From Oscillospiraceae bacterium (lineage in GTDB: Bacteria; Bacillota_A; Clostridia; Oscillospirales; Oscillospiraceae), in the NCBI GenBank assembly GCA_902786615.1, contig CADADE010000027.1, forward strand, positions 69,122 to 133,121: a DNA stretch of 64,000 nucleotides. The letters run 5' to 3'. Positions 33,807 through 61,606 of this stretch are shown here, piece by piece. The first letter of the stretch is position 1. Each line of letters opens with the position of its first letter. The notes beneath the pieces were generated by a model. The model did not search any database. It was not told the origin of the DNA and saw only the letters and a list, made by a program, of their open reading frames with translations. The position numbers and the translations under genes are program-made.

Positions 33807-34082
33807 ATGGCCGGTTCCACCAATGTCAGCATCCGTATGGACGCCGATCTCAAGGCGCAGGCTGACGCGCTGTTCGGAGAGCTGGGAATGAACATGTCAA
33901 CCGCGTTTAACGTTTTTGTCCGTCAGGCCGTGCGGGAGGGCCGCATTCCCTTTGAGATTTCCCTGAATCAGCCCAGCAGTGAGACAGTCGCCGCCATGCT
34001 GGAGGCGGAGAGGATCGCAAAGGACCCGTCCGTAAAAGCTTACACCGATATGGACGCGCTGCTTGCCGAGCTGCGGAAATGA
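33807..34082 (+). CDS. RelB/DinJ-family antitoxin
   Basis: A 91-residue ribbon-helix-helix antitoxin. The N-terminus STNVSIRMDADLKAQADALF is the DNA-binding strand and helix of RelB/DinJ proteins, followed by LGMNMSTAFNVFVRQAVRE and IPFEI; the C-terminal third wraps the toxin. It represses its own promoter in the family. AAAGGAG eight bases before ATG. It overlaps the toxin gene by four bases. The pair is visibly less GC-rich than its neighbours, consistent with transfer. Confidence 0.87.
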   Translation: MAGSTNVSIRMDADLKAQADALFGELGMNMSTAFNVFVRQAVREGRIPFEISLNQPSSETVAAMLEAERIAKDPSVKAYTDMDALLAELRK

Positions 34083-34363
34083 CGAAATATGCCGTAAAAT
34101 TCACAACGCAGTTTAAGAAAGACTACAAGCTTGCCGTCAAGCGCGGCCTGAAAACAGCGTTGCTGGACGCCGTTATTTCCGACCTTGCAAACGGCGTTCC
34201 CCTGCCGGAAAAGAACAGTGACCATGCACTGGGCGGCAACTGGGTCGGTCACCGGGAATGCCATATTCTCCCGGATTGGCTGCTGATCTATCGGTTTGAC
34301 GGGGATGTCCTTGTTCTAACGCTGACCCGCACCGGAACGCACAGCGATCTGTTTGGGAAATAA
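34079..34363 (+). CDS. YafQ-family mRNA interferase toxin
   Basis: A 94-residue RelE-superfamily toxin of the YafQ branch, which cuts mRNA on the ribosome. The YafQ pattern is intact: FTTQFKKDYKLAVKRG at the N-terminus, DHALGGNWVGHRECHILPDW with the conserved histidines and aspartate, LLIYRF, and the C-terminal catalytic histidine in TGTHSDLF. It forms a DinJ-YafQ type pair with the preceding antitoxin. Confidence 0.87.
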   Translation: MTKYAVKFTTQFKKDYKLAVKRGLKTALLDAVISDLANGVPLPEKNSDHALGGNWVGHRECHILPDWLLIYRFDGDVLVLTLTRTGTHSDLFGK

Positions 34364-34404: not shown

Positions 34405-36443
34405 TCATTTCACGCTGAAAAGGATTTCGCCGTAGGAGGGGTAGGGCCAGTACTTTGCGCCGCAGCGCATCTCCATTTCGTCCACCACGGCGCGCAGGCT
34501 CTGCATGGCAGGGAAAACCCGGTCACGGTAGTAGCGGGCGACGGCGAGGCTCTCATGCCGGTTTTTGAGCCCCTCCATCGCGGTCTCGAGCGCGCGGCCG
34601 TGGATGGCGGCGGAGGCGGAGAGGCTGCTCAGCTCGCTGACGATGCGGGTCTCGTAGCTCACATCCATCGCGGGGGAGAGGGCCTTCTTCTCGTTGGCGG
34701 ACTTTGCCAGCGCCGCCGTGCAGGCGGAGACCGCGGGCAGGATATCCTTCCAGAGCATGTCCATCATGGTCAGTGCCTCGATGTGCAGCACCTTGGAATA
34801 GCCGTCCAGCTTCATCTCGCAGCGGGCGCGAAGCTCGGCTTCGCTGTAGATGCGGTGGCGCAGGAAGAGCGCCACGTTCTTCTCGTCCAGATAGTGGGGC
34901 GTGCAGTCCGGGGTGGAGGGATAATTGCTGAGGCCGCGCCGCTCCGCCTCGCGCGTCCACTCCTCGCCGTAGCCGTTGCCGTTGAAGATAATGCGGCGGT
35001 GGGTGCGGATGACCGTGCGGATGAGATCGTGCAGGACCGCGTCAAAGTCCTCGGCCTTTTCAAGCTTGTCGGCGTACTGGCGCAGGGACTCGGCCACGGC
35101 GGTGTTGAGCACCACGTTCGGCCCGGAGATGGACTGGGACGCGCCCAGCATGCGGAACTCGAACTTGTTGCCGGTGAAGGCGAAGGGGCTGGTGCGGTTG
35201 CGGTCGGTGGTGTCCTTGGGGAACTTGGGCAGCACATGCACGCCCACCTTGAAAAGCTCTTTCTCGCGGGAGCCGTAGGGCGCGCCCTTTTCGATGGCGT
35301 CCAGGATCGCGTTCAGCTCGTCCCCGAGGAAGATGGAAACGATGGCCGGGGGCGCTTCCGCCGCGCCGAGGCGGTGGTCGTTGCCGGCGGAGGCGACGCA
35401 GATGCGCATGAGATCCTGGTAATCGTCCACGGCCTGGATCACCGCGCACAGAAACAGCAGGAACTGCGCGTTCTCGGCGGGGGTCTCGCCCGGCTCAAAG
35501 ACGTTGACGCCGGTGTCGGTGGTGATGGACCAGTTGTTGTGCTTGCCAGAGCCATTCACGCCCGCGAAGGGCTTTTCATGCAGCAGACACACCATGCCGT
35601 GCTTGCGCGCGATGCGCTGCATCAGCTCCATGGTGAGCTGGTTATGGTCGGCGGCGATGTTGGTGGTGGTGAAGATGGGGGCCAGCTCGTGCTGGGCGGG
35701 GGCGGCCTCGTTGTGCTCGGTCTTGGCCATGACGCCGAGCTTCCGAAGTAATGGTCGTCCAGCTCCTGGCCCTTGGGCGGGCGCGCGCCGAAGAGGGTGC
35801 GGCCCGTGTAAATAAGGTCCTTGCGCCGCTCGTAGACGCTCTGGTCGATGAGGAAATACTCCTGCTCGGGGCCGACGGTGGTCTTGACGTAATGCACGTC
35901 CTCATTGCCGAAGAGTTTCAGCACGCGAAGCCCCTCGCGCTGGATGGCCTCCATGGAGCGCAGCAGGGGCGTTTTCTTATCCAGCGCCTCGCCGCCGTAG
36001 GAGCAGAAGGCCGTCGGGATGCAGAGCACGCCGTCCTTGATGAAGGCGTAGGAGGTCGGGTCCCAGGTGGTGTAGCCCCGGGCTTCGAAGGTGGCGCGCA
36101 GGCCGCCGGAGGGGAAGGAGCTGGCGTCCGGCTCGCCCTGAATGAGCTCCTTGCCGGAAAATTCCATGATGACCTTGCCGCCGCCTACGGGGGCGATGAA
36201 GCTGTCGTGCTTCTCGGCGGTGATGCCGGTCATGGGCTGGAACCAGTGGGTGAAGTGGGTCGCGCCCTTTTCGATGGCCCAGTCCTTCATGGCGTTGGCC
36301 ACCACGGCGGCAGCGGCACTGTCGAGGCGCTTGCCCTCGTTCATGGAGCGCTGAACCTGTCGGAACACGTCCTTGGGCAGTCGCTCCCGCATAACGGAGT
36401 CGTTAAAGACCATGCTGCCGAAAATTTCCGTGACTGTGTTCAT
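34405..36443 (-). pseudogene. glnN: Type III glutamine synthetase broken by a short deletion
   Basis: Glutamine synthetase III makes glutamine from glutamate, ammonia and ATP. Frame one (36443 down to about 35735) gives the N-terminal part to [12 protein letters not shown]; frame two continues with [47 protein letters not shown]-type FEFRMLGASQS and the complete C-terminus. In intact GSIII about 17-20 residues separate DDHYFG from KLGV; they are missing and the frame shifts. The junction AAGC can be read as the end of GGAAGC (Gly-Ser) or as the start of a Lys-Leu codon pair, the mark of a deletion between short direct repeats. Unless the read is wrong, no functional enzyme is made. Confidence 0.85.
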
Positions 36444-36588: not shown

Positions 36589-36723
36589 TTACCAGCCGCC
36601 GGTCGCGCCGCCGCTGCGGTCTTCATCTTTCCGGTCTTCAATTGTCGTTCCCTCACCGGGAGAAACGATGGAAATGCGGCCGCCTGCAACAAATTTGAGT
36701 TCTTTTTCATTGAGTATTTTCAT
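36589..36723 (-). CDS. Small double-glycine leader peptide (bacteriocin/RiPP-precursor-like)
   Basis: A 44-residue peptide not long enough for usual gene callers. Sequence in two parts: leader MKILNEKELKFVAGG (residues 1-15) and core of 29 residues that begins RISIVSPGEGTT, is rich in Asp/Arg in the middle and ends SGGATGGW. The leader has the pattern of GG-type leaders cut by C39-peptidase ABC exporters (polar helix with hydrophobics, then V-A-G-G). AAAGGAG stands nine bases before the ATG, an ideal ribosome site, and the reading frame is uninterrupted to TAA. No cognate transporter or modifying enzyme lies in the window. It sits upstream of glnN on the same strand in the toxin-antitoxin hotspot. 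Alternatives: a signalling peptide, or a leftover of a larger cluster. Confidence 0.62.
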   Translation of the reverse strand: MKILNEKELKFVAGGRISIVSPGEGTTIEDRKDEDRSGGATGGW

Positions 36724-36907: not shown

Positions 36908-36963
36908 GCGCCGCGCGGCTTACAGGCTCTCGCGGTCTGCAAAGCCGCGGTTTTTTGAAATAG
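36908..36963 (-). repeat. Partial copy of the AAA-CYTH gene 3' end (left direct repeat)
   Basis: 56 bases align with 37740-37794 at 47 matches, 8 mismatches and one gap. The block covers the last 13 or so codons plus 12 bases past the stop. The two copies bracket the second toxin-antitoxin module. The rest of 36724-36907 holds one GC-rich hairpin (36859-36883) and no gene. Confidence 0.75.
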
Positions 36964-36964
36964 A

Positions 36965-36993
36965 TTGCTTTTAGCAAGCAAATGTGCTATACT
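36965..36993 (+). promoter_or_regulatory. Promoter and operator of the second toxin-antitoxin pair
   Basis: TTGCTT (36965-36970), 17 bases, TATACT (36988-36993) with TGC extension. The palindrome TTGCTT-TTAGC-AAGCAA covers the minus-35 and is a likely antitoxin operator. Confidence 0.68.
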
Positions 36994-37025
36994 ATAGTCA
37001 GGAATCTGAAATCGAGGTGTGTCTT

Positions 37026-37343
37026 ATGGCAAGAGCAGCAACAAGGACGGCAAATGTTTTCACGCGCGTCGATCCCGAAACGAAAGAACAGGCGGAAGCG
37101 ATCCTGAATCAGTTGGGCATTCCTATGTCCCATGCGATCGGCATGTTCTTAAAGCAGATCGTAATGCAGCGCGGGATTCCCTTTGAGATGAAGCTTCCCG
37201 CCACAGTCCCCGCAGCGCTCGGCAGCATGACCAAAGAGCAGTTCGATATGGAGCTGCAAAAGGGCATGGACGATATTGCCGCCGGTCGCGTTATTGCCGC
37301 GGATGCGGTTGAAGCCGAGATGAAGCGCATTTACGGCGTATGA
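37026..37343 (+). CDS. RelB/DinJ-family antitoxin
   Basis: A 105-residue antitoxin. TANVFTRVDPETKEQAEAIL is the ribbon-helix-helix N-terminus, followed by LGIPMSHAIGMFLKQIV and GIPFEM as in other RelB/DinJ proteins; the C-terminal part is unrelated in sequence to the antitoxin at 33.8 kb, so partner specificity differs. GAGGTG precedes ATG 37026. Overlaps its toxin by four bases. Confidence 0.85.
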   Translation: MARAATRTANVFTRVDPETKEQAEAILNQLGIPMSHAIGMFLKQIVMQRGIPFEMKLPATVPAALGSMTKEQFDMELQKGMDDIAAGRVIAADAVEAEMKRIYGV

Positions 37344-37669
37344 GCATGAAAATCGTCTACACTCACACAGCCCGGCAAGACCTGCGGGAGATTTATGAAT
37401 ATATCTCCTTCACGCTCCTTGTCCCGGAAACGGCGCGTTCCCTCACGGGCAAAATCACGGCGGATATACGCTCCCTGGAAACGTTTCCTGAGCGCAATCC
37501 TTTGTACAAGGATGAACCGTGGCGCAGTCAGGGTGTACGCTTTTTACCGGTCAAGAACTATCTTGTCTTTTATACAGTGAACAACGAAACGGAAACCGTT
37601 TCCATTGCACGCATCCTGTACGGCGGACGCGACATCAGCAAGCAGCTTGAAGCGGACATTGAATTGTAA
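37340..37669 (+). CDS. ParE/RelE-family toxin
   Basis: A 109-residue toxin of the ParE/RelE superfamily: KIVYTHTARQDLREIYEYI is the plasmid-stabilisation N-terminus, LETFPERNPLY the helix-strand turn, and RFLPVKNYLVFYTVNNETETVSIARILYGGRD the C-terminal beta sheet ending in the R-I-L-Y-G-x-R-D box. ParE members poison gyrase and RelE members cleave mRNA; this box favours ParE but does not prove it. Encoded just after its antitoxin with a four-base overlap. Confidence 0.85.
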   Translation: MSMKIVYTHTARQDLREIYEYISFTLLVPETARSLTGKITADIRSLETFPERNPLYKDEPWRSQGVRFLPVKNYLVFYTVNNETETVSIARILYGGRDISKQLEADIEL

Positions 37670-37704
37670 CAGCAGCTCCCTGTCGATTTGGCAGGGAGCT
37701 GCTG
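37670..37704 (+). terminator. Terminator of the second toxin-antitoxin pair
   Basis: A perfect 13-bp stem CAGCAGCTCCCTG/CAGGGAGCTGCTG with a 9-base loop directly after the toxin stop. Confidence 0.75.
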
Positions 37705-37739
37705 TATTAAGAATTATCGTCCCGCGTCAATGCAAGCCA

Positions 37740-37794
37740 GCGCCGCGGCGCTTACAGGCTCTGACGATCCGCAAAGGCGCGGTTTTTGTAATAG
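37740..37794 (-). repeat. Right direct repeat (true 3' end of the AAA-CYTH gene)
   Basis: Homologous to 36908-36963; contains the stop codon of the AAA-CYTH gene and the short palindrome GCGCCGCGGCGC after it. Confidence 0.75.
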
Positions 37795-45715: not shown

Positions 45716-46583
45716 GATCTTCCCCTCCCAGCTCGTAAATGAAAATTTCCTCGAGACTCAGCGGCAGCGTGTCCATGAAGAAGGGGCCGCAGGCGGCGAG
45801 CTTCGTCGTGAGCTCTTCGGCGCTGCCGCGCAGGATGAGCTGACGCAGCCGCCCGGTGCGCGTCTCGTGCAGGATCGTGAGATCGCCCGGCAGCTCCTGC
45901 CCGTCCGGTAGGGCAAGCTGGATCTTCACCATGTTCTCCTGCAGCTCGGCGAGGGGGCGTTCCAGAAGCATCCTGCCCCTGTCCATGATGCCCACATGGT
46001 CGCACACGTCCTCCAGCTCCCGCAGGTTGTGGGACGAGACCAGCACCGTCGTGCCGCGCTCCGCCACATCCTGCAATAAAAGGCTCCATACCTGGCGGCG
46101 CATGACGGGGTCGAGGCCGTCCACCGGCTCGTCCAGCACGATCACCTCCGGGCAGCAGCTCAGGGCGATCCAGAAGGCCGCCTGCTTCTGCATGCCCTTG
46201 GAGAGGCGGCGCATGGCCCGCTTTTCGTCCAGCGGGAAGGCCTCCCGCAGCTTCTCAAAGCGCTCGTCCGAAAACGTGGGGATCATGGCGCGGTAAAGAT
46301 TTTTCATGTCCCGTATCGTCGCCGCGCCGAAGTAGAAAATATCGTCCGGGATGTAGGCCAGCTTTTCCTTGACTGCCGGGTTTTCATACACCGGCTGTCC
46401 GCCGATGAGCACTGTGCCGCTGTCAGCGCGGTAGATGCCCGTGAGATGGCGGATCACGGTGGATTTGCCCGCGCCGTTGGGGCCGACCAGGCCGTAGACC
46501 GCGCCCTTCGGCACGTGGATATTCAGCCCGCAAAGGGCCTCAAAGCCGTCAAAGCTCTTTTTGAGCTCTTTCACCTCAATCAT
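45690..46583 (-). CDS. ABC transporter ATP-binding protein
   Basis: A 297-residue ATPase with Walker A GPNGAGKST at about 34-42, signature RLSKGMQKQAAF (LSKGM in place of LSGGQ, as in YtrB-type ATPases), Walker B VIVLDEPVDGLDP and the H-loop in VSSHNLREL. Powers the exporter formed with the following permease. It overlaps the GntR gene by eight bases; all three are one operon. Confidence 0.92.
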   Translation of the reverse strand: MIEVKELKKSFDGFEALCGLNIHVPKGAVYGLVGPNGAGKSTVIRHLTGIYRADSGTVLIGGQPVYENPAVKEKLAYIPDDIFYFGAATIRDMKNLYRAMIPTFSDERFEKLREAFPLDEKRAMRRLSKGMQKQAAFWIALSCCPEVIVLDEPVDGLDPVMRRQVWSLLLQDVAERGTTVLVSSHNLRELEDVCDHVGIMDRGRMLLERPLAELQENMVKIQLALPDGQELPGDLTILHETRTGRLRQLILRGSAEELTTKLAACGPFFMDTLPLSLEEIFIYELGGEDHAIKNILL

Positions 46584-61141: not shown

Positions 61142-61369
61142 TGTTCGCATCTCCTTTGCCTGTATTATATGCAATCAGGTGTGTTTTACCAACTTATCAG
61201 AACCTGTCCGGTTTAAATTGCAGGCACGTTTTCCGGTAAGCGTCCCCTGAAAAAAACGCAAACAGGGATTGTCCTTTGTGATACTTCTGTGATAAAATGT
61301 GTGGTAGAATGCAAGTGTAAACAGGAAGAACATAAAGCAGACATACAACAGGACATGGAGGGTACCAAC

Positions 61370-61606
61370 CTGGAAAACAAATCTGTCAAGCTTGAAGATC
61401 TCACAATGTAAGACATCGCGGGCGGCGTGATCGTCGAGGACAACGACGGGAGCAAGCTCTGGCTCGTCCGCCAGGACGGCAGCGTGATCTCCCCCGTCCC
61501 CAACAAGGAGCAGGCCATCGACTTTGCGCATGCCTACAGCATCAGCACCCAGATCATGACCAAGGAGGAGTACGCAAAGCACTTCGGCCGGCCGCTCGTC
61601 TGGTAA
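61370..61606 (+). pseudogene. Double-glycine leader peptide gene with premature stop
   Basis: Read from 61370, the frame gives ENKSVKLEDLTM, a TAA at 61409-61411, then DIAGG and a core of about 60 residues (VIVEDNDGSKLWLVRQDGS, ... KHFGRPLVW) to a natural TAA at 61604. With Glu (GAA) in place of the stop, the leader would read LEDLTMEDIAGG, a typical GG leader. GGAGGG lies seven bases before a CTG at 61370, where an ATG would be expected, so two point changes may have silenced the gene. The nearest ATG (61355) has no ribosome site. Promoter TTGTCC-18-TAAAAT at 61269-61298. Next gene: CPBP protease. Confidence 0.55.

Follow-up and report, generated by a model that had tools for sequence, protein, structure and literature searches.

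A conserved family of double-glycine-leader peptides in Oscillospiraceae and its predicted place in a regulated secretome

Does a reading frame of 44 codons, lying on the minus strand of a 64,000-nucleotide stretch of Oscillospiraceae DNA (hereafter the window), encode a genuine peptide and, if so, how would this peptide leave the cell and to what end? An earlier note on this DNA had claimed a gene with an AAAGGAG site, a GG leader and a 29-residue, Cys-free core ending GATGGW, all of which were read in the sequence, as follows.

36723-36589, minus strand: double-glycine peptide gene of 44 codons (leader 36723-36679, core 36678-36592, stop 36591-36589), from translation, homologues and alignments
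36739-36733, minus strand: ribosome-binding site AAAGGAG, nine bases 5' of the ATG, read from the sequence
36786-36770, minus strand: short stem-loop CTGTCC-TTGAG-GGACAG in the 5' untranslated region, also present in loci L001-L003, L042 and L043, read from the sequence

Translation of 36723-36589 (-) yields MKILNEKELKFVAGGRISIVSPGEGTTIEDRKDEDRSGGATGGW followed by a stop, that is, a 15-residue leader with a terminal GG and a 29-residue core with a GATGGW end; Cys is absent. Numbered back from the cleavage side, the leader contains Leu-12, Glu-8, Leu-7, Val-4, Ala-3, Gly-2 and Gly-1. According to PMC6363468, the leader consensus of C39 proteases is Leu(-12)-X3-Glu(-8)-Leu(-7), with groove contacts at Val-4, Leu-7 and Leu-12. 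The leader, which reads as Leu(-12)-X3-Glu(-8)-Leu(-7)-GG, agrees with the recognition rule given there (hydrophobic residues at -4, -7 and -12, Glu at -8, GG at -2/-1), and this bears out the C39 type that had been claimed for it. The core is acidic and hydrophilic (charge about -2.2, GRAVY -0.98). Pfam gave no match to the peptide, and NCBIfam gave two, to bacteriocin models and both below cut-off (TIGR03949, 12.9 against 21.5 bits; TIGR01847, 13.1 against 15.7 bits). As for a known RNA 5' of the gene, the sole match was isrJ, on the other strand and sub-threshold (21 against 37 bits), and it was discarded.

Searched as a single sequence against 5.8 billion proteins, the peptide found 11 homologues, with E-values between 3e-18 and 2e-8 and no Pfam domain in any of them, and a profile built from 19 members found 128 at E<=0.1, one of them annotated 'hypothetical protein [Oscillospiraceae bacterium]'. 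Scanning genome contigs revealed three loci, in the Ruminococcaceae MAGs RUG14429, RUG13571 and RUG10684; in the closest, L001 (RUG14429), synteny with the window covers the AAA protein, the peptide and glutamine synthetase III, and DNA identity to it is 83-86%. Homologous leaders, which the earlier note had named as a check on the gene, are present in relatives. Codon-level constraint, another of its checks, is also visible, with dN/dS values of 0.59 for the window and L001 (weak, few sites), 0.32 for the window and L002, and 0.11 for L042 and L043; conservation of the predicted protein across more than 100 members is stronger evidence for a real gene than dN/dS. A chance reading frame is ruled out by the homologues, and a viral or plasmid gene was rejected because viral contigs gave no confirmed relative and plasmids none. 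We have good confidence that 36723-36589, a gene small enough to be passed over by gene finders, encodes a real peptide with a double-glycine leader, belonging to a family that is not yet listed.

The family was analyzed on 121 sequences, namely the window peptide and the 120 listed of the 128 profile homologues. A C-terminal [AV]T..[WC] was present in 112 of the 121; the nine others, most of which by eye continue into unrelated sequence at the C-terminus, were excluded from the tail counts, and Thr-4 is present in 112/112 by this selection rule. Among the 112, Trp-1 is found in 111, Gly-6 in 111 and Gly-7 in 109; position -3 is G (84) or Y (27), and position -2 is G (78) or T (28). The tail GGATxxW is nearly fixed and is the best-conserved part of the family, the middle being acidic and variable in length and sequence, so that the conserved leader and variable core anticipated in the earlier note are not what the homologues display. 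Cores cut by script (109) have a mean charge of -2.7 and a mean GRAVY of -0.83, and 97 of them lack Cys.

The neighbors of the peptide gene in the window are glutamine synthetase III, RelB/ParE and an AAA protein, and two toxin-antitoxin modules are located there.

37017-37669, plus strand: RelB/ParE toxin-antitoxin module
33807-34363, plus strand: RelB/YafQ toxin-antitoxin module

The hotspot with two such modules described previously holds in that both are nearby, but the ParE module resides within a 784-bp stretch of the window (36908-37787) that is absent from L001, which nonetheless keeps the peptide in place. This module is therefore an insertion outside the peptide unit, and we rejected the idea that the peptide is part of a ParE toxin-antitoxin unit. 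The same 48 bp of L001 match both sides of the 36908-37787 stretch, as after an insertion with duplication. Glutamine synthetase III (34405-36443, -) is broken into the frames 36443-35622 and 35730-34405, where L001 has a single frame of 704 residues; the break is either a frameshift or a sequencing error. Its start is preceded by a perfect TTGACA-17-TATAAT promoter (36547-36519, -) and then by a strong hairpin (36505-36479) with TTTTCC; a terminator scan of the window did not list this hairpin, and the promoter-hairpin stretch 36547-36473 (-) is possibly an attenuator.

The peptide gene has its own promoter element (36824-36791, -), and the sequence upstream of the gene is conserved as far as distant family members. 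The pattern CTTCTGTGAN7TGTGYTAT has one exact match in the window and one with two mismatches, for a shuffle mean of 0.08; this 24-mer has two to nine matches in each of eight genomes, and its reversed form none or one. As a further repeat was visible upstream, the pattern was extended to the 30-mer TGTGAYANTTNTGTGAYANNNNNTGTGYTA, which, with up to three mismatches, has 82 matches in nine genomes, and none when reversed. Two elements of this type are found in the window.

36824-36791, minus strand: promoter element of the peptide gene, with a degenerate first repeat TGTGCGC, a second repeat TGTGACA and an extended -10 TGTGTTATGCT; exact 24-mer match at 36817-36794
61277-61306, plus strand: second promoter element of the same type, one mismatch to the 30-mer
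61355-61606, plus strand: double-glycine frame behind the second element, with an in-frame stop within the leader; in L136 and L160, the element is followed by uninterrupted homologues

The gene that follows this last frame is one that we take to encode a CPBP membrane protease. Over 79 sites, the TGTGAC(A/g) repeats have a spacing of 11 bp; from the end of the second, 10 bp lead to a TAtrAT-like -10, itself preceded by TGTGn; a -35 is not evident in these repeat-type promoters. The first repeat is degenerate at the peptide gene of the window (three mismatches to the 30-mer) and more so in L002 (four). PMC10936776 describes SARP promoters as carrying direct repeats spaced by 11 or 22 bp, with 8 bp between the 3' repeat and the -10; set beside that account, the element fits a SARP-type layout by its 11-bp period, with a repeat-to--10 distance of 10 bp (by the chosen heptamer) instead of 8 and a degenerate first repeat in the window.

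What the element precedes was examined with one fixed rule for a double-glycine leader, applied to frames with a ribosome-binding site at most 400 bp from a site. A first set comprised 82 sites (80 from genome matches after dropping repeats, and two in the window, the second of which scores as a fail owing to the in-frame stop in its leader), and a double-glycine ORF was found downstream of 57 of them. In a second set, from 24 loci of other genomes (origin listed for 17), 27 of 31 sites pass the rule, and L173 also looks like a double-glycine frame by eye. The same rule is passed by 291 of 5,000 randomly drawn positions and by 25 of 261 taken upstream of genes (6-10%), the latter pool itself containing some double-glycine genes. 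Several of the 25/82 sites without a double-glycine ORF precede Sec-signal proteins; further examples stand before a membrane protein resembling DUF975 and a protein with a zinc ribbon. The cargo includes LysM (L202:16300-16617) and CW_7 (L202:13375-13707) proteins confirmed by Pfam, as well as SH3-like and PepSY-like proteins assigned by reading of the sequence. In L206, one site heads a same-strand run composed of a LysM protein, STAS, adaptor, C39 ABC and second ABC. We have good confidence that the peptide carries a C39-type leader and belongs to this predicted co-regulated double-glycine secretome.

Three further observations concern the cargo. A glycine-zipper peptide resembling class IIb bacteriocins is found behind the same element in L192. 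In L054/L101 (G101:C2), the frame behind the element has a long leader, Nif11-like by reading, whose GG is followed by numerous TGPLG repeats. Finally, WTEGGATYYR occurs shortly after the leader in double-glycine LysM proteins (L041:2875-3117, L127, L132, L003:5293-5535) and resembles the EGGATYTW tail of some members of the peptide family, by kinship or by chance.

Some motif sites reside on the same contig as C39 genes, and 11 such regions were therefore examined. By reading, most contain STAS, HlyD-like, C39 ABC, second ABC and double-glycine LysM genes, and ten of the 11, chosen as they were for a motif near C39, contain an alignable response regulator of 268-270 residues (that of L204 extends past the end of the examined region), whose C-terminal half varies very little (across nine, mean column identity is 88%). 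Among 101 related genomes, the promoter pattern is present in 42 and its reversed form in none. The regulator (E<1e-140) is present in 36 of the 42 motif genomes versus 0 of the 59 motif-less ones (p=1.7e-21, with kinship ignored and draft genomes used); the six motif genomes without it have 1-13 sites. Weaker paralogues alone (E<=1e-40) occur in 12 genomes, 2/42 with the motif and 10/59 without, and do not track it. The peptide family itself is found in eight of the 101 genomes (seven at E<=1e-3, G085 at 0.029), and it is therefore not a universal inducer; all eight have the motif and seven have the regulator. In the genome of L001 (G001, region L220), the regulator stands amid three motif sites, and behind each of these comes a LysM-type gene with a double-glycine leader. 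Beyond this set, a family-level draw of 250 genomes revealed the pattern (at most two mismatches) in four and the regulator (E<=1e-80) in three, the fourth pattern-bearing genome, G284, having one site on a small contig with a weak peptide-family match; the system is therefore, apparently, mostly confined to one genus-level group. The transporter regions L038-L040 were rejected as being under the same promoter, since the motif is absent there even at five mismatches.

Four of the 120 regulator homologues among the matches listed bear the JGI name 'two-component SAPR family response regulator'. Pfam recognized a receiver in the three regulators tested, once below cut-off, and no DNA-binding domain in these three. 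A profile search of solved structures gave weak matches to EmbR (3e-4, 1.4e-3) and also PhoP, and the structure model is poor (pLDDT 56). PhoB- or WalR-like control, the first idea, was abandoned, as the SAPR regulator fits better by co-occurrence. We propose that this SAPR-type regulator (receiver plus SARP/OmpR-like winged helix) binds the two TGTGACA repeats 11 bp apart and, once bound, would bring RNA polymerase to a promoter in which a -35 is not evident; that it controls the peptide gene is held with moderate confidence. Directly 5' of the regulator gene lies a conserved protein of 167-172 residues (L202:8992-9495, L220:10603-11121, L222:6664-7173), for which Pfam gave no match with the L202 copy. 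In reading the regions, we noticed no gene for a histidine kinase next to the regulator. The exporter islands also encode a SpoIIE phosphatase/kinase-like protein (L201:3478-6063) and a STAS protein (L202:2116-2415), which suggests a partner-switching module tied to these islands.

A C39 gene is absent from the 64-kb window, where six exporter proteins used as tblastn queries gave ATPase-level similarity alone (45915-46529). C39 transporters are present in all three genomes carrying the closest peptide copies, as four genes with open frames of 722-743 residues. No outcome that the earlier note had listed as refuting turned up, the C39 evidence coming from these relatives. In one of these genomes, G002, the peptide starts 162 bp downstream of a C39 ABC/second ABC pair, which belongs to a longer block.

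G002/L002, upstream of the peptide: Nif11-leader peptide, B12-radical SAM RiPP C-methyltransferase, small HlyD-like protein, C39 ABC, second ABC

The Nif11-leader peptide scores 33.0 bits (cut-off 32.3) and the radical SAM RiPP C-methyltransferase 506 bits (cut-off 282); the latter is about 5 kb upstream of the peptide, next to its own Nif11-type precursor. The three transport genes fall under the curated NHLP cut-offs (826/853, 617/709 and 30/156). This G002 copy is the only one of 11 family genes, in eight draft genomes, to share a contig with a C39 gene. At the genome level, C39 is found in 39/42 motif genomes versus 27/59 motif-less ones (p=5e-7, kinship ignored), and in 36/36 genomes having the regulator at E<1e-140. 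The 44-residue precursor would then be recognized by its leader and cut after Gly15 by a C39-peptidase ABC transporter whose gene lies at another place in the genome, with release of the acidic 29-residue peptide. Altogether, we consider it probable, from these sequence comparisons, that the peptide is a C39-exported member of the regulated double-glycine secretome. It would be made together with double-glycine proteins carrying LysM, CW_7, SH3-like or PepSY-like domains, and such co-production with wall-type proteins leads us to place its action at the cell surface or outside it.

As to what it does there, the nearly invariant GGAT(GG/YT)W tail would be the working end of the peptide, most likely read by a receptor, which would make the peptide a signal; graded as this last step alone, a signalling role of the exported peptide is a tentative reading, conceivable rather than probable. 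With low confidence, we put a signal first, since the body is short and acidic and the tail fixed, a wall ligand close behind it and a bacteriocin lower. As a surface ligand, the exported peptide would be held at the wall or another surface polymer by its GGATxxW tail and would alter the envelope without being a signal. Wall-type domains in the cargo of the same promoter (LysM and CW_7 by Pfam, SH3-like and PepSY-like by reading) and the EGGATYY-like stretch after the leader of some double-glycine LysM proteins speak for this role, which is possible although rather doubtful: the peptide is an acidic 29-mer without a known binding domain, and the EGGATYY likeness is short and may be due to chance. 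A usual bacteriocin has a conserved leader and a variable core that is cationic or hydrophobic. The bacteriocin proposed in the earlier note, a core that would inhibit or kill relatives with immunity coming from elsewhere, is favored by the double-glycine leader, by a weak, leader-only likeness to the class IIb model and by the glycine-zipper peptide of L192. It has lost ground and appears unlikely, because the core is acidic and hydrophilic, immunity-type neighbors are absent in the window and in L001, and both the class IIb and the bacteriocin-signal models remain below cut-off; moreover, it is the tail that is fixed, instead of the core being variable.

Two other explanations bear on the product itself. 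Were the tail (for example, its Trp) modified by an enzyme before export, the peptide would be a RiPP precursor, and the near-invariant tail could serve as the enzyme site. The radical SAM RiPP C-methyltransferase of L002 is indeed in the same block as the exporter, but it adjoins a Nif11-type precursor of its own, and no such enzyme gene stands beside the family members of L001, L003 and L042-L048 (frames judged by reading), which makes modification improbable, though an enzyme encoded at another locus might act on the peptide. Least credible, and very improbable in our view, is a conserved peptide that stays in the cell, or a leader-like relic, in which the double glycine is incidental: most copies are without an adjoining exporter gene, but the leader consensus, the promoter common to other double-glycine proteins and the C39 genes in the genomes all argue for export.

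The proposed system has several known counterparts. The ComC/BlpC pheromone regulons of streptococci likewise combine a response regulator, direct-repeat promoters, double-glycine cargo and C39 export; their regulator is of the LytTR type, whereas here it is SARP/OmpR-like, the cargo includes wall-type proteins, no kinase was noticed and the pheromone role is putative. With NHLP/Nif11 export (TIGR03794/03796/03797/03798), the L002 block shares a C39 ABC, a second ABC and a small HlyD-like protein, its Nif11-leader peptide being just above cut-off and its three transport genes below theirs; the window peptide differs in its short leader, which is neither Nif11 nor nitrile-hydratase. The C39-exported double-glycine peptides of AMS/PCAT systems have the same Leu-12, Glu-8, Leu-7, Val-4 and GG in the leader, and C39 transporters occur in relatives of the window genome; unlike them, our peptide has no dedicated transporter beside its gene, the cargo is scattered over the genome, and a conserved tail replaces the variable core. 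Lastly, SARP regulators such as AfsR (PMC10936776) share direct repeats 11 bp apart just 5' of the -10, with a -35 that is not evident; here, in contrast, a receiver lies in front, the organisms are Oscillospiraceae, the targets are exported small proteins and the distance to the -10 is 10 bp, not 8.

Taken singly, double-glycine leaders, export by C39 transporters and promoters of the SARP type are already known. In the open-licence literature, we found no description of the peptide family or of a SAPR-controlled double-glycine regulon, and 'GGATGGW' was absent. The fullest reading that we put forward, which we hold to be possible but less likely than not, is confined to one genus-level group of Oscillospiraceae: its C39 exporter would be a regulated general secretion route and not a bacteriocin pump; one SAPR regulator would turn on up to about 27 promoters per genome, in front of wall proteins with double-glycine leaders and of small peptides; and peptides of the GGATxxW family would be an extracellular signal of this system, whose GG and YT tails define specificity groups. 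For gut and rumen bacteria, most of them uncultured, the analysis offers a concrete set of regulator, operator, cargo and exporter. In these bacteria, wall-type proteins too are fronted by double-glycine leaders, which are commonly taken as marks of bacteriocins or pheromones. If this reading is true, the regulator and its repeats allow an immediate test, the promoter pattern would be a simple finder of exported small proteins missed by gene callers, and the annotation of double-glycine leaders would have to change.
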